From NCBI GenBank assembly GCA_027604005.1, contig JADGJT010000016.1, forward strand, positions 330 through 64,329: a DNA stretch of 64,000 bases, written 5' to 3'. The stretch is from Dinochytrium kinnereticum. Lineage: Eukaryota; Chytridiomycota; Chytridiomycetes; Chytridiales; Chytridiaceae. Below the pieces are notes generated by a model. That model was not told the DNA's origin. It searched no databases and was given only the letters and a program-made list of their open reading frames with translations. This document shows, piece by piece, positions 1-63,123 of the stretch. The position numbers and the translations under genes are program-made. Each line of letters opens with the position of its first letter. Position 1 is the stretch's first letter.

Positions 1-757
1 GCGTCCGGAGATATGCAGTTCTTGGAGAGTGATTCCGTCTTTCCTGGGGCTCTGATCGCGTCCAGACGGTCCTTTCGCGGCCAGCAAGAAAACAAAACAA
101 GAAACACAGCAGCCTAGAGAAGATCACACAAGCAAGAAAAAAGAGAGGAAAAGGGCAACGATGGGGGTGACCGCCAACACACTCTTAAACGCACTTATAA
201 CATAGAGAGAAAGAAGAAAAGAAAGAAAAACAGATAAGAACAAAAAAAAGAGACACACATATTATTGTTATTTAAAGCAACAACAAGATGTTGTACCAAA
301 CGTGCTTATAAACAGACATGGCAGTAGCAATGAAACAAATGAATATAGTCCGTGAAGCCTCTCGTCACGCAAGAGAAAGAAACCAATAACAACAAATAAT
401 GATAAGAAAGACAGAAGAAAGAAAGAAAGAAGAGGGAGGGCAAAAAAGAAAAGAAAGAAAAGAAAAAAGAAGGTATGGTGAGGGATGCCGCCAGAAATCT
501 TACAATGACCTACAAAACATGGACGGGGTGAGACCATCTGCTCCCTCAAGCAAAAGCGACAAACGAGTCGCAAATGATAAAAAATAACATAAAATCTGCA
601 ACGCGAGAAGAAAGAAAAGGGTAATCGCCCGCGCTTCCCGCTCCTGGGCCAACCCTCCAAATACCAGAAAAAGAAAAAGAAAAACAAAAAAAACAAAAAA
701 AAAACAAAACAAACAACCTCATTTACCCTCCCTCCCACAACCCCACACAACATCACA
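1..757. other. Intergenic stretch, A/purine-rich
   Basis: No gene is supported here. The + strand is rich in A and AG runs (for example 400-480 and 660-720). The only long open frame, on the minus strand, would encode Phe/Leu runs and is a by-product of this composition. It lies downstream of the DUF3712-type gene (minus strand, stop at 758) and probably holds its 3' UTR. Confidence 0.6.
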
Positions 758-2424
758 TCACATCACCGAAATCCTAAGCAACGACAAAATCCAATTAACC
801 AAAACCGTGCTAACAACCCCTCTCAACCGACTCAAAGGTATCATAAAATCCACATCCCCCAACACCCTATCCAACCAACCAACCCTCTCCCCATTCTCAT
901 TCAACGCCGACAATGCCGTGACACCAATGTTCCTCGCCCCCATAAAAAGGCTGGCCTGAGCAAGGATGGCGTTGAGGCTTCCCATCGTGTTGATGGTGAT
1001 GGACATTGGGATCGTGATGGACAAGTCGCCTGGTGTGATTTTCAGGAGAGGCACCGAGCAGCGGGCGAGACTGTTCGCGTCAAGCGCGAGGTCAAAGGTG
1101 ATGTTGGTCAGGTGGATGCCAATAGGTAAACCCTAGATATCATCCGGTAAGGGGGGGGGGGGGGGTTGCAAGAGAGGAGTTAGGTTTTGAAGAGGAGAAG
1201 GTAGGGTGGGGAGGGAGAAAATGGTTTGACTGTAAGTGGTGAGCTTTCTGGAGGTAACTTACGGCAGCGAGATCGAATTTAAGACCCGATGAAATGGCGC
1301 CAGTAGAAAGCACCTTGAGGGGCAAGGGTGTTAGGGTTGTGGCGGGGGCGTTTGATTGAGGTTGGTTGGGGGCGTCTGATAGGAAACCTGCAGATAATTG
1401 TCAGCATTAGCGTGGTTCAGCTCCAATCATCACTACGATAAAGAGGAACAACAACAAAAAAAAAAAAGAAGGCCCGTAACAGGCATAACAGCAACCCGAC
1501 CATAAACATAGAAAAAGAAGAAAGAAGTAAATGATTAAAGCATGTACCTGAAGCCAAGAGAAGTTGTCCAACATCAATGACTCTTGACAAAGGGATAGGC
1601 TTAATGTCCACCAAACCAAACTTGAAACCCGCCACAATCTCCAACAGCATCTTTGGAACCACCTCAGCGTCATTCGCCGCAAACACCTGCGAGAGCCCCG
1701 CAACAAACGCCGCCAACGCCGATCCATTCCTCGGAATATCCAAGGTGATGTATCTCGCGCCAAGATTCGCCTTCCCATCTCGAATTTTCAGCTCCGCGGG
1801 AACCTTCTTCGACGACATCATGGTCTTCCAAGACTTATCAGCCCCCTGGTCAATGACCGGATCGTTGTAAAGGCTTGCAATGTTCCAGTCGGATGGGGGC
1901 TTCATGTCGAAAGGGATGTTGAAAGGGATGCTGACGCCCTTGATGTTTGCGGCAAAAGAGAAGAGAACAGATTCTTGGGAGATGTTGTGGACAGAGATCT
2001 CGGTGAAAACCAGGGCGTCTGTGGACATTTGGGAGTTCGCAAAGTTGTCCTGGATGAGCTTTGGTAGAAGCACGTGAATGAAGATAGGGATGAAGATGAT
2101 GGAGAACACGACCATAAATATGGCGATGATGATGCAAACTCGGATGCAGATCACTCGTCGTCGGCTGGGGGGCGTCTTTGCTGGAGTCGAAGGAGGGAGG
2201 GTGTCATGAAGTGTGACCTCTGAAGCCTCTGCATCCTTATCATCATTCGCAGAAGCCTTCTTCCATGATGTCAGGTTCAATCGAGTGAGTATGGGAAACC
2301 GTGCAAGAGCATCGTTCCTCCTCTTCCCCGTTGATTCTTCCCCGGATGCGCTCATGAACCCATTGGTGCTGCTGCTATCCCCGACTTCTCCTGCCGGAGG
2401 GCTACTAGTTTCTTCTCTGACCAT
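758..2424 (-). CDS. DUF3712-type single-pass membrane protein
   Basis: Three exons are read on the minus strand, with introns near 1546-1392 and 1261-1136. The N-terminal third is polar and Ser/Thr/Glu-rich. It is followed by a basic stretch (PSRRR), then one strong transmembrane helix (IIIAIFMVVFSIIFIPIFI), then an extracytoplasmic beta-rich region with the DUF3712 look (for example FTEISVHNISQESVLFSFAANI and a closing NITFDLALDANSLARC). Fungal proteins of this kind are mostly uncharacterised; the yeast relative Tag1 is a vacuolar membrane protein linked to ending autophagy. The frame stays open upstream of the chosen ATG at 2424 for about 35 codons without another ATG. The true start could therefore be in an unseen upstream exon or at a non-AUG codon. 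The family call is by resemblance; the membrane topology is directly visible. Confidence 0.7.
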
Positions 2425-3291
2425 GACTCCTGTTGCATTCGCTGCTTCTGATCCTCGTCCACTCTTATTCTTGGTAGAATTGTTTGCCGTTGTAGCTGCT
2501 GGTGGATGAGAAGCGCTTATCCAAAACAAATATAAAAAAAAAAAAAAAATGGCGGTGGCTGTCGATCCCTGTATTAAAAAGAACGACTTTTCGGATTTTG
2601 AGCCGAGGGGAACCGAGCAGACTGACGAGATCCTTCCTCCCTGTTCACTCCTACCGAACGCCGGGGATATTCAAGACTGGACTGGGCCTGCAGAGCTGGC
2701 TGTCAGCGCAGTTTCCTCGTTCGTGGGTTGTGTGATGCGGGAAAGATGTGTCCAGTTTTTCATAGGGGACAGTTGGTTCTTTTATCAGACCGTTGACTTT
2801 TGACGTGAAGCTCCGCCTGTCTGGGAAGCTGCGGGGGGGGTGAGGCAAAAGCGACAAGGGTTGGAAAAGGCCGTGCAACCACCACCTTGTATTTTTGGTG
2901 ATTGACGCCAAAACACAAGAAGGACCAGCTTGTTCATTGCAGTATTTTTTTGTTTGTTTTTTGTGTTTTTTTGTGGTTCTTTGAGTTGTGGAGGGATTCT
3001 TTAACTGTAAGCTGATGCGAATGCGAATCCATGTCGATCAAGGATAATAGTTGATATCTTTACGCGCAAATGATCTGACACGACACTTGCAGAGGAAAGC
3101 GCGTGTTCTAATCAGCACCATAGCTCACAACCTGCAACAGCGCTGCACTTCTGCCTCAGAATACTCCCGATTGCATCGGCGACTCCCCATCCACACACAG
3201 GTCGCGGCTGGGAAGTACGATAGCAGAAAAGCTGGTTCGAATGGACTGTCCGCACGCTCGGACTGAAACTGAATCAAATTTGACATTTGCC
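2425..3291. other. Divergent promoter region between DUF3712 protein and MAU2
   Basis: About 870 bases separate the minus-strand start at 2424 from the plus-strand start at 3292. It contains an A run near 2530-2549 and a T-rich stretch at 2945-2975. Short open frames here (for example + strand from 2549) match no family I recognise. It should hold the control regions of both genes. Confidence 0.5.
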
Positions 3292-5921
3292 ATGATGGTA
3301 ATGGAGGGCCAGCTTACTCCTTTACCCGCGACAGCCATCCTCTGGGCAACGTAAGCTGCCGGCACCACCACTCACGACATTGCTGACTGTAGCATTCATT
3401 CAGATGCGAGCGACTCATGAGGAAGGCCGCTCGAACCATGGCTGCTTCTCTCTCAGCATCTTCATCGGCACAAACGGAGTACAGCAGCAGCTGCAGGGCC
3501 ACGCAGGTCGAGCAATGCGTCACTGCTGCGATACGGTGTTTGGAAGCCATACTTCTTATCCCGCATACATCATATTCGCATGATCGTACTCCTGGCGGGT
3601 TGATGATGAAAGGAGAAAGCTTGTCGCCGAGGGATGAGATCAAGACCAGGTGCAAGCTTGCAGAGATATTGCATCATTTTTCGGAAAACCAGATTGAGGC
3701 TGAGATCCATGTGCAGAAAGCGGTGAGTCCCTTTTCATTTTCTTTGCTTGAGGGTATTTCTAAATGAATTCTTTTGCAGCTGCTGCTGACGGCAAAGGTT
3801 CGTTCGTTGTGTTTTTCCTGATCGAGTTGAGGGTTTTAACGATGCAAAAGATTGGGGACGGTGACCCGCTAAAGTATACCGTCCTAAGTATACACTTGAC
3901 CATTCTGAGGCGCTCTGGCAACCTTTCTGCCGCGAAATACACGCTCCGTCAGGCCATCTCTGATACTGCATTGTAAGTCGTGTTGTTGTTGTTTTGATTG
4001 CTTAGACAAACAACGCTTTTCTGCAGGCGCGGCATCCCGCAGTTTTACTACTACTTCATCAGCCAAAAGATCGAAATCTCCCTTGAAGAGGGTGACTTCC
4101 CTTCAGCCTTCTCCATCATGGCCTCTGCAGCTCAAGAGGCGCAGAACCGTAACGATATAACGATGATGGTGATACTTTGCCGTTTCGTTCGTTCCCTGAC
4201 TTGTGTGTTTATGCAACAAAAAAACAGCTATCTTTTCATCTTCGAAGGGCATCCCTCGCACTGAAGCTGTCCGATTTCCAACAAGCAGCTGATAGCTTAA
4301 ACGCTGTCCAGCATTGCTTCCCTTCAAACTCACAAGAACCCAAGAACGTTGATGACGCTGTTCAATCATTTAGCTTTGTCTATTACCTTGTAAAGACATT
4401 ATATGGAGTGAACGTTGGGAACGTGACGGACGCCAGATTATCTCTGATAAAGTTGCAAGAGATTGTGAATCCTGGGAATGGATCGTTAGGGCTTGGCACT
4501 CAATTTGATTCACATGGACTTGTTTGTACCCTCTTTTCCTTTTCTGTGTCTTTCCATTTCTTGACTCGCGGTTCTCATTGTTATTATTGTGTTTCGTTTT
4601 CCGTAGATTCGGAGGCTGGAAATACCGCGGATGCTTGTGCTTGCTTTCCTTATGTCGGCTTTGGTGTGGAAACCGATTGACGTTGAGAAAAGCTTTTTGT
4701 ATTTAAAGGAGGGGTTGAAGAACTTTTATTGTGAGCTCTTTCACTGTTTTTAATGTTTGCTTTTATCTTATTTGGTTCATGGATCTAAATTAATGTTTTG
4801 CGATTCTCTTTTTGTCAGCATCTCTACCAAAACCAGAAGGTATCTTAAATGAGGTAGCTGGGGTTTATTAATGTGATGGTATACCAGATAACAGTACCCT
4901 GTCTGAAGTTCTGGAGAGAAGACATTCTTACGTTGAAACGGAACTTATCTTTTCCATTCTACTTGGTGAGATCAAGATAATGAAGGGGGAATTTGACCTT
5001 GCTATAAATGTGAGAATTGCCTTTTCATTGTCCCTCTGTGCTTAATCTATTTTCCCCTATCTGTCTTTACGGCAGGCGTTCATGTCGGCCACGCAGTGCT
5101 TGGAGAGAGCAAGGGATATTGAGAAAAATTACAGAAAGGTCATTCTTCTGGACCTAGGGATGACCTTCCAGGCTATAGGTGACTTTTCGAATTCTTACCG
5201 GCACCTACACGCCGCGGAGGAGATGTCAAACGCGAATGAGGCTTTGAGGGACTTTAGCTCTGCTGTCAATTCTCTCATGCTCCAAGCTGGTGGGGCGGAT
5301 GGGTTACCTTCACATGTAGGCCGGGGTTCAATTTTTTAATATATAATTTTGGCTAACTATTTCATCTTTGTAGGTTGTTGATAACTTCCTCTCAAACCAC
5401 CAGCTGCTATCATACAATCCCATTCTACGTGAATCTCTCCTCGGCGTCCGAGCCATTCGAAGCTCGGAGACCCAGAACACAAAGTAACTACCGCGGCAGA
5501 TTTATTGATCATGTTTTAACAAACCATAACCCAGGATCCATTTCCACGAGGTCATGAAGCAGGCTGATAAACGATCGTCTCAGTACAAAACCGTGGCGCT
5601 GATTATCCTTGGAAGCCTCTTTATGGACACCTTCCCCCAGCAGGCGAAGAAGATGTTCTCTGTGGCGAATGAAAGCGCGTCAAGACAGAGTTTCCCGCTT
5701 CTTGCAGCGTTTTCGTGCTGCGCGCTTAGAGATCTTGCGGTTAGGGAGAAAATGCCTGATGTTGCTGAGAGATATGGTGGGTGTCTGCTTTACGTTGAGC
5801 GCTGTCTAAAACATTTGCGCTTTCAGGTCTTTCGATGTGTTCGTTTTTAAAGAGTTATGATGCTAACGCATCAAATGCGATAGAGGCGGCTTCGGGGTGT
5901 CTGCTGAAAAGGGAGGCATGA
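3292..5921 (+). CDS. MAU2: Cohesin-loading factor MAU2/Scc4
   Basis: This is a TPR-like helical-repeat protein read across about ten short exons. The middle part aligns well with MAU2: CLEAILLIP..., then KTRCKLAEILHHFSENQIEAEIHVQKA, as in the animal protein's THLQLGSVLYHHTKNSEQARSHLEKA. The C-terminal block VALIILGSLFMDTFPQQAKK and CALRDLAVREKMPDVAERYG matches the family's end. The protein pairs with Scc2/NIPBL to load cohesin onto chromatin in the nucleus. The first exon (3292-3350, MMVMEGQLTP) is the least certain part; it is joined through a good GTAAGC donor, a TGCTGAC branch site and a CAG acceptor at 3403. Exon 3 (3780-3797) is only 18 nt. The last exon ends LLKREA-stop at 5921. The middle (4600-5080) has several tiny introns whose borders I did not fully fix. 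Confidence 0.85.
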
Positions 5922-6109
5922 AAGAACCCTGGACCCTTTCTGACTCGGCTCTCGATCAGCTTTTATTTATAGCATTGTTCTCGCGCATCATGGTTAAAGG
6001 CAATACTTTTTATTGTGCAATCAACATGAGGGCAATGACTTTTCACGCTCAAATAATACCACGATATGATAGCAGATTGTACCTAAAAAGCACAGGAAGA
6101 ATCAGCTGC

Positions 6110-7059
6110 TTAGAAGGTGGTGTTCTTCTCAGCGAAGGACCAGTTGACGAGCGACCACCAGGCTAGGGAAAAACGAGAAACAAGACGCGTTAGCTCCCAG
6201 CCCCAACGACAGTAGTGATAAGAAGAAGGACTCACTCTTGATGTACTCGGGACGAGCATTGCGGAAGTCAATGTAGTAAGCGTGCTCCCACACGTCGCAG
6301 GTGAGGATGGGGGTGACGGTGGGGTCTGTGGTCAACAGATTAGTAAAAATTTAAGATAATCATGGGGTCAGGTCTCACCAGAGAGGGCCGACACAGCGTC
6401 ATGGGTGTCAATGACCTTCAAGAGGCCAGTGGACTTCTCCTGGACGAGCCACGCCCACCCAGAACCAAAGTGACCGGCAGCGGCATCGGTGAACTTGGTC
6501 TTGAACGCGTCGTAGGAGCCAAAGCTCTTCGTGATGAGAGCAGCCATCCTCTCAGACGGAGTGTGGACATTCTCCTTGAGGGGAGCGAGGGACTCCCACT
6601 GATTGATCGGTTGATGATGGGTGAGGAGGAGACGTTAGATTTTTAAAAAAGAGGCAGACGGATGCAATGCATGCATGCATGAACGCATAGGCCAAGCACC
6701 AGCCATGAATGAAAGTGGGGAAGTTGGCCAAGGTGGGGGATTGGACGGTCGCTTAAAACCAACAGGTGAAAGGACTCCCTGAGGGCCTCTAATCAAAGCA
6801 CATGGAAGCCACTTACGTAGAAGGAGTGGTTCCATGCCTGTGCGGCCGAGTTGTAGACACCGGCGGGGAGGGTTGAGCGGTCCTTCTTGACGATCTCCTC
6901 GATGGATGAGTCCTTGAGCGGGGAGCTTGCAACAAGGGTGTTGAGCTTGGTGACGTAGCTTGCGTGGTGCTTGTTGTAGTGGAAGTCAAGGGTCTCTGCG
7001 GAGATGGCGGGGGCGAGGGCGTCGAGCGCGTAGGGGAGGGCGGTGAGGGTGTAGGCCAT
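6110..7059 (-). CDS. Iron-type superoxide dismutase (paralogue 1)
   Basis: Four exons on the minus strand give about 200 residues, the usual length for a bacterial-type FeSOD. It converts superoxide to oxygen and hydrogen peroxide. The start [20 protein letters not shown] closely resembles E. coli SodB, with no room for a mitochondrial presequence, so a cytosolic enzyme is inferred. Metal ligands are visible: His in HYNKHH, His in AWNHSFY, and Asp and His in [13 protein letters not shown]. The Gln in NSAAQAWNH and the short loop before DVWEH are the iron-type signature; MnSODs carry a Gly at the first place and a longer loop. The gene is divergent from the pirin gene at 7393. A second FeSOD lies 2.3 kb away. 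Confidence 0.92.
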
Positions 7060-57611: not shown

Positions 57612-60600
57612 CTACTTTCCTACCCGCCGCTGCGCAGGATGAGTCCTGGTATGATCCAAAGGCTCGTTCTCCCTGATCGGTACACGGATCACTGTAACCC
57701 TCCCATCTCTCCCGCCGACAGCCCAAACCCTTGCATCACGCCGGAGCCTCTGAACTCGGAATGAACGAAGCTGGAATGGGAGCCAGAAACGCCTCACGCC
57801 TCCAATGTAAACCCATCCTTCTGTGGATATGGTGGGGGGTGGGGGTTGGGTTGTTGGGGTTGTGGTTTTCGGGGGTTGATTGGGGATGGTGAGGGTTGGT
57901 TGGGTTGGTTGGGTTGGTTGGATGGGTTCGAAGGGTTGGGAGTGTGGTTGGGTGGCGCGTTTGGGTGATTTTGGTTGGAGACGACGTTTGTCTAAGCGCC
58001 CTGTTCAAGTGACGTGTTGTGTTAGACGTGTTTCAGGTTCGTTCAAGGCCTCGACCCGTATTTACCTGTCGAGAAGTTCCAGGTGTATACATGCTTCTCC
58101 TCCACCTCGACCATCACCAAACTGCCATAAAGGCACCGGATGATGCCAAATTGGTCAGGATCCACTCCTAAAGACTTACGGCGAATTTCCTTCCCGCTAT
58201 CCAGTGACCAAGCTCTGACATAGTCCTCAGCAATCGATACAACAGCCGTGCCTTCTGGATTGAAAACAACATGCCGGATCCACCGCGAATGCCCACGAAG
58301 ATGGAGTCGCGGTCTCTGCTTCTCACCATCTCTCACCTTTAGCAGATCCCAAATCATCACAGTCATATCATCAGACCCAGACGCAAGGAACCTCCCATCT
58401 TCTGAGCAAGCAATACACGTAATGGAGTCCGTGTGCGAGGTTGCCTTTCCTCCAGACTTGAACCCGGAAGAATGGAAATCGGCCTTGCCAGGAGGTAATT
58501 GGTGACCAAGCCTCGACACGTGAGCTCCAGATTCAACGTCCCATATCATGATGGTCCGGTCTGTTGATCCAGAGAATGCAAAAAGGCCGTCTGGGGAGAA
58601 CTCGATGCACGTCACTTGTCCGTCATGTTCGGCTCCTTCATGATCGTCGCCTCGTGAGAGGGCGTCCCAGAGTTTAATCGTCTTGTCGACCGAGCCAGAG
58701 ACGATTAATGCGCCGTCCGGGGAGAAGCAGATGGAGCTCACGGGACGTGAATGACCATTGAAACGCATGAGTGTGGTGCCTTGGAGTAGGTTCCATAAGC
58801 GAATAGAGGCGTCTTTAGAGCTAGATGCGAGTATCGTTTCATCTGTGGGATGGCATGCTACAGAAAGAATCTTATCATGATGGCCCCTTAGAATCATTAC
58901 GGGCTTAATGGGTTTATCATGCTCGGAATTCTCGTTCGAGGACTCGCTTTTTCTTAGTGTTTCTTCCTCACAACCAATTCCGTGGAAGAGATCCCAAATC
59001 CAAACCTGGTGGTCCGTTGTTCCGGTCGCCAAAACCCGATCCGCTACCCCAAAAGTGGCGCATAACACATCTGCAGGATACCCTTCCAGGACTTTAACTC
59101 GTTTTGCAAAAGGTGCGGTTATGCCATTCAACTGCCACACCGCGACAGTTAGATCGTGGCCGGAGGTGGCCATCCACTTTCCTGACCTCGAAATGGTAAT
59201 AGCGTTAATCCAATCTTCGTGACCAGTGGGGAGCTTTCCGAGAGAGGCACCTGTCTCAGTGCAGATGAAGTTTATATCAGGATGACCGCTGTTGGATGTC
59301 CAAAGCACAGCTTTTTGGGTCGGATGGAAGATGGCGGTTGAGACTGTCTTCTGGCATTCAACAGTCTTTTGTAATGAGCCTAAAGATAATGGAAGGATAT
59401 TTTAATGTTCTGGAGTCGAAAGTTCAAGATGAAAGATGCTACCAGAAGGCAATTCCCAAAGTTTGATGTCTCTTTCGGAGAAAGACATGAGAGATTTCCC
59501 ATCCGCAGCAATATCAATACCAGCTATGCTATCCTTATGTCCAATAAGCTTCCCAACTTCAGTTCCCGTGGCAGGGTCCCACGATTTGATCAGCTTATCC
59601 TTTGACGAGGAAAAAATCAGGTTTGTCGTCTTGCACCAAAGCACCGCGTTCACTTCATCCTCGTGCCCAGACAATGTGGACAAGCATGATTGCCATTCAT
59701 TCACTCCTCCAACAATCACTTTTGGAATAACTAACGACGACTGCGTTTCAATGAGAGGAAAATATTGCTTGTAAAGCGGGCATCCTAGAGGAGAGAATGG
59801 GAGGCCCGTTCCGTAGACTTCAAGAGCGCACGCTGATATTGCTGGATAAAATGACTGCATCATGCGGATTCCATCCTCGAGGATAGTGGAAAGCTCCTTG
59901 TCGGATCCAAGGTCTTGAACCCATGATGAGAATCTTTTCATGTGCCTTGTGCATATATGTAGCTTCTCCAAAATGCTCATGATTTCAATGTAATTGAGAA
60001 GCTTTGACCTGATAAATGTGTCTATCGCCTTTGAAAGTGAATCCATCGCTGCTCCTCCCCAGTCACTATAAATCCCGCCATCCTCGAGATGCCGGACAAA
60101 GTTGCAGCACGAATACGCTAGACCGGGTGAGACGCGGTTAAAAATTAGTTCAGAAAAGTTATCAATCTCGGTGTGAAGTACGCCTGGAGTCATGCTTGCG
60201 ATGTTTGGTCGGGACTTTTCTGCGATAAGTTCCAAACAGATTATGGCGAAATTTTGATGTAGCTGCCTCATATCAAAGAAAAGCTTCTCGTCTGTGCATC
60301 GCAATAGGTTTGTGATAAAATCGGAAAATGACTTGTGGAGAGTTTGAACGGAGTCGTCTGTTATGTTGAGGACTGGCCTAAGTATTCCAAGCACGCTACC
60401 CACGACGTCAATGTCCAACTTTAAAAGCTCCGAAATTGCTATGTGTGATATAGGTTCCTTTACGCACACTATGCATCCGAGTACCTGCTTCAAAATATCT
60501 AACTCACTTTCGTTACGTGAGCTAATTATTCGACGTAAGGTAGAAAGGTACATGGAGTCCATTTTCTGGTCTAAGCATATTCCCTCGCCTTGTTCTGATT

Positions 60601-62169
60601 CCACCAGCCGCTCTAACACCGCCAGCGGGGTTAAAGATCTTCTGATATCCTCACAGGCTAGAAACAGCCACATAAAAAGGCCATTTGCCGATGCAGCCAG
60701 CTTTTCTGCAAGCTCTTCAATTTCCTCACTTGATTTTTTCAATCGATGCTTCATTGCCTTCATTCTCGCATTTGCGAATATCTGAAGGTCTCGGCGTTGA
60801 CTAGAGTCACTGAGGTCCAGCCACCTTGGTTTGAACTCGCTTAGAGACTCTTCAATATCACTTTCTGGTCGGCTGGTCACGAGAAGCTTCACGAAATCTG
60901 GCATCTCTGACCATCGCGAAATAATGTGAAGCAATGATTTTCTTTGACTGGTTCGTGCTAACGCGCATTCATCGAGAGCTTCTACAATCACAACAACCGG
61001 AAGACGTTCAGAATCCGTTAGATGAGCTAATGGATCCACTAAAAGGCACTTGAACTTCACATAGAGTGAAGATTCCGCGATTATATTTGGCTGGTTTTTC
61101 TGAAGCTGCCTTAATCGCATCGCAACGGACGGGAACTTCTGTGCGAACTGAAAAGCAAGTGTCGCCAGCAGACGATCTGGGTTGCACCTCGACGCATTAC
61201 CATGCTTTCCAATGAAATATCCAAGTAACCTCCCCGTCTCCCGAAATTGCGACCATGCCATGGCTGCGACAACGGATTTCCCAACACCAGCCACGCCTTT
61301 CAGCCAGTATGCCCGGCTCTTTGGATCATGAAACCAGTTTGTTATCTCCTGCAATAGCCATTCTCGCGTTCCGTCCATCTTCTTTAATAATATCTCCTTG
61401 ACCTCATTCTCCATTTTGGGGCCCTCCGGCAGAAGCCATTGCTCCAGATCCTTCAAATATGCATGTGATTCATTTCGGGCTTCCTTCCGTTTCCTAATGT
61501 CAGGATTGTTATTCAGCTGACCTTCCAGAGAGTTTCTGGCCGCAGCCATCATGTTGCGAATGTCCTGGGCGAGTGTATCTATGGTTGTTTCCCAGTCGTC
61601 AAGGTTTGAGTTCCCGAGATCTACGAGGGGGCAGCGTGAGGTAAGCGCGTGAGACCAAGTGAAGGGACCGTTGTCCAGCTGAACAACGACCATTTGCTTT
61701 TCCTTTGCATGCGCAAAGTTAAGCTCCTTTTTGCAGTTGTAGGAGGCCTGATGAAGTATTAGCGCGTCTGTGCTTGTAATTGTCAAGGAGAAGGAGATGG
61801 TACCTCATATGCTGCTGATATGCATGGGATAATGACTGCTGAAGATGTCAACCCATCATACATAGAGTCATTAATGTTTCCACGAATGTTGGCCAAGTCC
61901 ATCCAAATCTTGAAAGAGCGAGACTCTAAGGATTGCTTCACTCTTAAAACTGTTTTCTGATGTGACCATCTGGAGGTTCGTCAGTTTGACCATAACTGGC
62001 TGTGGCCTCACTGGTAACTCAGCATGGCATCAAAGGCGTAATCGGTGACTGACTTCTTGCTGCTCTCGCCATCTCCCTCAACCCTGATCCTTGAATCCCG
62101 TGATGAGCCTTTGTCTTCCGGCTGCTCTGTCTCTAGGACAGCATTGACTCTGGATGCCCCGCATCCCAT
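57612..62169 (-). CDS. TIR-NACHT-WD40 NLR-like protein with N-acylation motif
   Basis: Five exons join in frame: 62169-62012, 61969-61804, 61747-59443, 59379-58066 and 58000-57612, 4,332 nt or 1,443 residues. MGCGASR gives an N-myristoylation Gly2 and palmitoylation Cys3. Residues about 44-170 are a TIR domain: YAFDAMLSYQWS, then FKIWMDLANIRGNINDSMYD GLTSSAVIIPCISAAYE, then YNCKKELNFA with Glu116 at the place of the TIR catalytic Glu. The NACHT domain has Walker A LKGVAGVGKS (about 257-266) and Walker B VVVIVEALDECAL. WD40 repeats follow (LSGHEDEVNAVLW, LRGHHDKILSVACHP, IKLWD, MIWDVESG). A Pro/Thr/Gln linker and a closing blade GWVYIGGVRRFWLP ... VGGRDGRVTVI end the protein. By analogy with fungal NLRs, ligand sensing by WD40 would drive NACHT oligomerisation and TIR signalling; NADase activity is possible but unproven. 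Confidence 0.88.
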
Positions 62170-62273: not shown

Positions 62274-63123
62274 TCATGCGTTCTTCGCGAGAATGAGAAG
62301 GAAATAGAACTCGGCTTCCTTCCCTTCCTCATGCTTAAGGGCCTTCTTCATTGACCATGCCCTCTCCACGGAGATATCGGAAAAGCCAACCTTTTCCAGC
62401 TGATCCTTTATTTCCGTGATGCTGATGCCGTGGCGATGCACACCATGCGATTTCACGATGCTGGGATCATGGAAGCGAACCGCGTTGGGCCCATCATCTT
62501 CAAAGCTGTAACAGAAAAAGAGGAAAGGTTAGAGCACCAAATGAGTAGTGTCAATGACCCACTCTGTAAATGCAACTCGACCGCCAGGGCTCAGAGTTTG
62601 CTTAATGACCGTCAAAAATGATACCAGGTCAGGAATATGGTGGAGGGTCAGGTGAGAGACAGCAAGGTCAAATCGCTGGCCTCCCAACGCCGGATGATCC
62701 GGATCCTCCAAAAGAATCTCCTTGGCCATCATGTTGGGAACCTTGCCTTCGCTTGCTGGTCCAACTTTGGATGTGAAAACATCCACCATCCCAGGCGCCG
62801 TGTCAACCCCAAGCAGTGAGTCAACATGCGGAGCCAGGAGGACTGAGAGGAGTCCAGTGCCACAGCCAACTTCCAAGACTTTCATGTCTTTGGAAAGCTG
62901 GATCTTGGAGGAGATGGCTTCAAAAGCCGACTTGGATGCGGAAACATGCTCTGCATGTAGGGTTGAGATTTGAAATCAAAACTGAATTCTTGATTACCTG
63001 GGTTCTTGTCCCAGTCCACAGCTCGGTTGGAAAAGGAGGTCTTTTGATCATGCTAGAACCGTCAGACTCTTGGTTCTGCCAAATACCTACCGCGTGATGG
63101 TGATCGTGGTGGTGGTCGTGCAT
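62274..63123 (-). CDS. Class I SAM-dependent methyltransferase
   Basis: Four exons, beginning with a His-rich start MHDHHHDHHHAHDQKTSFSN RAVDWDKNPEHV. The Rossmann-fold SAM-binding motif is DMKVLEVGCGTGLLSVLLAP, followed by LLGVDTAPGMVDVF (acidic residue binding the ribose), then FDLAVSHLTLHHIPDLVSFL and LSPGGRVAFTDFEDDG. The C-terminal part (HGISITEIKDQLEKVGFSDI SVERAW) fits the UbiE/type 11 superfamily found widely in fungi. The substrate cannot be told. A GTGGGT donor after GGRVAFT links to the last exon. The gene lies 104 bp upstream of the NLR-like gene in the same direction; whether they are functionally connected is unknown. Confidence 0.85.

Follow-up and report, generated by a model that had tools for sequence, protein, structure and literature searches.

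A TIR-NACHT-WD40 gene with an acylation-type start in the chytrid Dinochytrium kinnereticum and its relatives in other chytrids

We analysed a stretch of 64,000 nucleotides (nt) of Dinochytrium kinnereticum (assembly GCA_027604005.1, contig JADGJT010000016.1, positions 330 to 64,329; referred to below as the window), an aquatic, early-diverging fungus (Chytridiomycota, Chytridiales), and in particular a gene on the minus strand between 62169 and 57612 that encodes a TIR domain, a NACHT-type NTPase and WD40 repeats. A previous reading of the letters and open reading frames alone (the sequence-only reading) had proposed a five-exon model for this gene, and we could reproduce that model at every exon boundary: its 4,332 nt encode 1,443 residues, with GT-AG junctions throughout and a sole stop codon at the end. 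Divisibility of the length by three is, taken alone, weak evidence for the model. The gene has the following features (window positions):

62012..62169, minus strand: exon 1, with the MGCGAS start, a disordered-looking linker and the first TIR strand (FDAMLSYQ), ending in phase 2 as in three paralogs elsewhere in the genome (C74, C434 and C111)
62152..62169, minus strand: MGCGAS, a start of the N-myristoylation/palmitoylation type by the motif rule, also found in paralog C74
61571..62025, minus strand: TIR domain (Pfam TIR_2), residues 49-167, split across exons 1-3
61970..62011, minus strand: intron 1, 42 nt, GT-AG
61804..61969, minus strand: exon 2, central TIR, from WMDL to AAYE
61748..61803, minus strand: intron 2, 56 nt, GT-AG, phase 0; the deposited model takes different sites
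61724..61726, minus strand: Glu116 of NCKKEL, the putative catalytic glutamate
59443..61747, minus strand: exon 3, remaining TIR, NACHT, a helical region and the initial WD40 repeats
60869..61372, minus strand: NACHT-type NTPase, residues 234-401
61274..61297, minus strand: Walker A (GVAGVGKS), residues 259-266
60965..60994, minus strand: Walker B (VVIVEALDEC), residues 360-369
58235..59692, minus strand: WD40 repeats, residues 794-1258, with intron 3 falling within
59380..59442, minus strand: intron 3, 63 nt, GT-AG, with an identical junction in the deposited protein
58066..59379, minus strand: exon 4, WD40 repeats
57821..58065, minus strand: intron 4, ending at 58001 (65 nt, sequence-only reading) or at 57821 (245 nt, preferred)
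57612..57820, minus strand: last exon or its 3' part, with a conserved C-terminus (GW, FWLP, G..G.V.VI) and the stop codon; absent from the deposited model

Profile searches matched TIR, NACHT and WD40 on the spliced protein in the predicted order. The N-terminal 188 residues matched Pfam TIR_2 (59.8 bits, cut-off 28; E 4.6e-16) and no other Pfam family at E <= 1, HET included. The scan of the whole protein, made on a 1,383-residue variant described below, yielded 52 families at E <= 1; the best 25 of these are mostly beta-propeller models, and the P-loop family among them is NPHP3_N, which is of the NACHT type (E 1.7e-25). WD40 was matched by Pfam in eight stretches and by a home-made profile in nine repeats (weakest independent E-value 0.0043). 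The predicted product, with its N-terminal effector domain, its NACHT domain with Walker A and B and its C-terminal repeats, is by these profiles a protein of the STAND (signal transduction ATPases with numerous domains) or NLR (NOD-like receptor) type.

The TIR domain is, judged by profile, a genuine one. Glu116 aligns with the C..E region in Cat1 and SARM1 and is found in all five aligned relatives, and the 18 solved sequences matched by the TIR profile are Cat1, SARM1, RPS4 and tir-1, with no MyD88 or TLR among them. The expectation that this region would fold as a TIR domain was examined on the model of a relative (P0002, TIR 36% identical), which has a TIR fold and a STAND-type fold; for the protein of the window itself the fold is thus predicted from the relative. 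In the structure comparison (VIA-align, limited to Foldseek's top chains) the P0002 model matched the TIR domains of Hydra TRR-2 and MyD88 as well as that of SARM1. No HET structure was present among the 50 Foldseek rows listed, which carries no weight.

The first two introns were assessed by trying 15,564 combinations of zero to two GT-AG introns (35-130 nt) between 62300 and 61451. Keeping the exon 3 frame, a Met start and at least 60 residues left 583 distinct proteins, 582 of which were scored with a profile of the TIR domain of four other chytrid proteins, the window's gene being excluded. The intron pair of the sequence-only reading ranked first of the 582 (147.3 bits, with 134.7 for the next best), models with the deposited intron 2 reached 105.0 bits at most and the unspliced frame 23.9 bits. 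Intron 2 is firmer than intron 1 in this test because the top six rows vary only in intron 1. Reading of the DNA and frames revealed introns at both TIR positions, in phases 2 and 0, in the paralogs C74 (L023), C434 (L024) and C111 (L025) as well, the intron 2 acceptor in C74 being assigned by eye. The proposed join of 61969-61804 to 61747 is thus backed by both the paralog introns and the profile scoring. A six-frame view breaks the gene into pieces, and it had been claimed that the TIR part would then be missed; this is almost correct, as a six-frame genome scan with PF01582 finds nothing and one with TIR_2 picks up exon 2 alone, at 29.7 bits.

Intron 4 is in frame with either end, giving 1,383 residues when it ends at 57821 and 1,443 when it ends at 58001. 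The stretch 58000-57821 is C-rich and of low complexity (92 C, 62 A, 15 T, 11 G) and would, if retained, code for an insert rich in proline, threonine and asparagine. We lean towards the 245-nt version, although this intron would be far longer than introns 1-3. The C-terminal GW..FWLP motif is present whichever end is chosen, and similar ends were recognised by eye in P0005 of Nowakowskiella and in the paralogs C28 and C434.

Relatives were collected in two protein searches (listing 53 and the best 120 of 500; 168 identifiers altogether). A chytrid TIR profile, trained on eight sequences (that of the window, three paralogs and four of the 168), matched 20 of the 168 at E <= 0.001, i.e. 13 proteins with a fungal name, one of a limpet and six without a name. 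All 13 are from chytrids: Dinochytrium (1, the own deposited copy), Nowakowskiella (7), Rhizophlyctis (1), Quaeritorhiza (2) and Blyttiomyces (2). NPHP3_N is listed for every one of them, and WD40 for all except P0007 (partial) and P0061. There was no match among the Dikarya-named proteins of the 168. The search for the same domain order in early-diverging fungi that had been advised thus returned TIR-NACHT(-WD40) proteins in further chytrid genera, which suggests, at the level of sequence, a chytrid family and not an isolated case. Identity to the protein of the window is 30-39% in the five that were aligned (P0002, P0005, P0006, P0007 and P0009). The chytrid proteins (e.g. Nowakowskiella HK096_008364 (P0005), Rhizophlyctis rosea HK097_009032 (P0006) and those of Quaeritorhiza and Blyttiomyces) are alike in having a TIR of the TIR_2 type with an NC..E motif, a NACHT domain and mostly WD40 repeats, but they differ at the N-terminus: P0005 (Nowakowskiella sp. 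JEL0078) carries a PB1 domain ahead of the TIR (residues 8-72, E 1.2e-5) behind a MGNTVS start, and the remaining ones have other N-termini. Another chytrid protein, P0103 of Entophlyctis, has PF13676 listed, but its TIR looks different and is unmatched by the chytrid profile. A search with the TIR region only (residues 42-195) against 5.8 billion proteins, in which 119 candidates were scored, returned just the own deposited copy, a result that reflects the word filter and length bound and is no proof of rarity. A bacterial origin was considered in a scan of genome contigs with TIR, but none of the 12 pattern stretches found was confirmed by tblastn; the scan excludes little because it reaches close relatives only.

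Six-frame searches of the Dinochytrium genome, whose counts are lower bounds, gave at least five loci for TIR_2 at E <= 0.001 (three above the cut-off) and at least nine for the NACHT-type family (eight above the cut-off). Those with a TIR are:

C16: the gene of the window, TIR-NACHT-WD40
C28 (L022, G000:C28:49500-58500), 691-6592: MGGKGSK start, a different TIR subtype, NACHT and WD40 (WD40 by eye)
C434 (L024): degenerate TIR, NACHT and WD40 (WD40 by eye)
C74 (L023, G000:C74:68500-75986), 1908-3546 and 4471-4962: MGCGASK, TIR and NACHT, then breaking off
C111 (L025, G000:C111:11500-19500), minus strand: TIR with Sel1 repeats, not an NLR, with both TIR introns in common with the receptor gene
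C40 (L027, G000:C40:37000-43500): TIR_2 exon adjoining an ankyrin-repeat frame
C156 (L028, G000:C156:4500-12000): TIR_2 match and, by eye, a second TIR-like stretch

Since the TIR-Sel1 gene on C111 has the same TIR introns, the TIR exons may predate the fusion with NACHT. The C28 TIR has DNMLLEW in place of NCKKEL, and P0076 of Nowakowskiella and P0103 of Entophlyctis appear similar by eye; a SAM domain suspected in C28 was discarded, as the exon concerned matched no Pfam family. In C74 the Walker motifs of the NACHT domain appear altered by eye, and an inverted, decayed fragment of the NACHT region is found farther along.

The start of the protein conforms to the rule for N-myristoylation (MGxxxS-type), with a Cys3 that can be palmitoylated, and we infer that Gly2 is myristoylated and Cys3 palmitoylated. 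Comparison of the first six codons with those of C74 revealed three silent differences and no replacement; the linkers that follow can scarcely be aligned, and the C74 frame has a stop shortly upstream of MGCGASK. Other such starts are those of paralog C28 and of P0005, the latter being the sole match when the pattern was tried on the 168 fetched proteins (155 with an M start), and MGCGAS itself was seen only in Dinochytrium among the sequences fetched. The genome has an N-myristoyltransferase gene (PF01233 on C351, E 2.3e-40), its best piece crossing two in-frame TGA codons, as introns would give. A start of the acylation type leads to a prediction of the receptor's site of action.

STAND proteins sense with their repeats, switch with their NTPase and act with their N-terminus. 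We consider it fairly probable that the gene encodes an intact intracellular receptor of this kind, held at a membrane, with a TIR that cleaves NAD+ upon activation. The acylated N-terminus would anchor the receptor at a membrane, and its WD40 propellers would both hold it in the off state and detect a ligand or a host protein that has been disturbed. Binding would then lead to nucleotide exchange in NACHT and oligomerisation, as in Apaf-1 or plant TIR-NLRs, and the clustered TIR domains would cleave NAD+, by which the cell may be killed or arrested or an ADP-ribose signal produced. With a SARM1-like TIR, NAD+ cleavage is the likely act, and, given the MGCGAS start, a membrane the likely place; a role in immunity or cell death is suggested by the architecture. 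Two observations weigh against the acylated start: 12 of the 13 fungal-named TIR proteins begin otherwise (eight of the 13 carry the label partial and one is the mis-modelled own copy), and C74, which shares MGCGAS, is a broken gene. Walker B has a Glu where the five aligned relatives (from three other chytrid genera) have Asp.

Several known systems can be compared with it. Apaf-1 has a STAND ATPase with WD40 propellers, but a CARD in place of the TIR. SARM1 shares the TIR fold and the region of the catalytic Glu, but carries ARM and SAM domains and lacks a NACHT domain. In plant TIR-NLRs (RPP1, RPS4) the TIR is likewise at the N-terminus of a STAND ATPase, but this is followed by leucine-rich repeats instead of WD40 and is of the NB-ARC type, the P-loop family among the 25 best matches of our protein being of the NACHT type. 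TRAM, a myristoylated TIR adaptor, is in principle a lipid-anchored TIR, without NTPase or repeats. More tentatively, and with some doubt on our side, the dually acylated TIR-NACHT-WD40 receptors may form a membrane-tethered chytrid TIR immune network of Apaf-1-like wheels that burn NAD+ at a membrane and have TIR-Sel1, TIR-ankyrin and further TIR proteins for partners. If true, this would be a genuine fungal TIR-NLR system concealed in databases by mis-spliced gene models, and the HET-domain systems found in higher fungi might be its descendants or its sisters.

The same architecture might also serve a TIR that is a non-enzymatic adaptor recruiting further TIR proteins within the cell, for which the genes on C111, C40 and C156 provide candidate partners and with which the fit of the P0002 model to TRR-2 and MyD88 would agree. 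We regard this as unlikely in view of the catalytic-Glu motif in all five aligned relatives and the solved sequences matched, among which MyD88 and TLR are missing. Still less likely is a receptor for kin recognition or development instead of defence. The HNWD proteins of Podospora (HET-E/D/R), which govern incompatibility (PMC12881547; this and the papers cited below were available as excerpts, to which our statements are confined), have the order effector-NACHT-WD40 in common with the gene of the window; however, their effector is HET and ours TIR_2, and our WD repeats are divergent, with no direct repeat family of 24 nt or longer within 57612-59800. That the gene is decaying and without function would fit the broken C74, the degenerate TIR of C434 and the altered Walker B, but is very improbable for five exons that stay open through 1,383-1,443 codons and retain the TIR and NACHT residues common to the relatives.

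The deposited protein (HDU67_002199, P0001, 1527 residues) equals that of the receptor gene at residues 8-88 and 109-1314, and the remainder differs through the gene model. It drops the first seven residues because it is fused to an upstream methyltransferase, replaces residues 89-108 because a different intron 2 is used and loses the C-terminus because intron 4 is read into. The methyltransferase (by a precomputed Pfam assignment for that part of the deposited protein) lies at 62274-63123 on the minus strand, its frame ending 104 bp upstream of the receptor start; no tRNA was found in the window. A true fusion of methyltransferase, TIR, NACHT and WD40, in which the TIR is shorter and the protein ends early, as annotated for these two closely spaced genes on a common strand, we consider the least credible reading of all, since the score falls from 147.3 to 105.0 bits with its intron 2, residues 89-108 are kept by four of the five aligned relatives (P0009 has its own gap there), C74 starts at MGCGAS with in-frame stops upstream and a preceding frame without a Pfam match, and the C-terminal motif of P0005 and two paralogs is missing.

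That TIR domains are uncommon in fungi, as the sequence-only reading had it, agrees with a 2026 atlas of eukaryotic TIRs, in the excerpts of which fungal TIRs occur only in Rhizoclosmatium globosum, a chytrid, with none in InterPro's STIR clan (PMC13142454). No protein with PF01582 is reported for the fungi surveyed by Soanes and Talbot (2010; PMC2939053), and the survey of Dyrka (2014) lists no NLRs in chytrids (PMC4986451). The presence of TIR in NLRs of Chytridiomycota has been stated before (PMC9815663), so TIR-NLRs of this phylum are known as a kind; NLR counts in its species go down to one (PMC12258605). We saw no further chytrid TIR-NLR in the excerpts of PMC7075850, PMC11291939 and PMC6040629. 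Neither the start of the acylation type nor the TIR introns held in common nor the distribution across several genera was found in the TIR, NLR, N-myristoylation and chytrid literature searched, although the architecture or the start may be in the 2020 chapter of Daskalov, Dyrka and Saupe, which is cited for TIR-NLRs of Chytridiomycota. Since five named chytrid genera have TIR-NACHT proteins and the Dinochytrium paralogs share TIR introns, early-diverging fungi do possess TIR-NLRs, and the link that has been proposed to connect TIR with the HET domain of fungi becomes testable. Automatic gene models can truncate such TIR domains, which calls for caution in their use.

One further NACHT-type locus should be mentioned, the main frame of which (1349 residues) gave no TIR match:

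C59 (L026, G000:C59:46500-55500), minus strand: NPHP3_N, with an EF-hand-like segment recognised by eye, NRNGDGFVHVKEF
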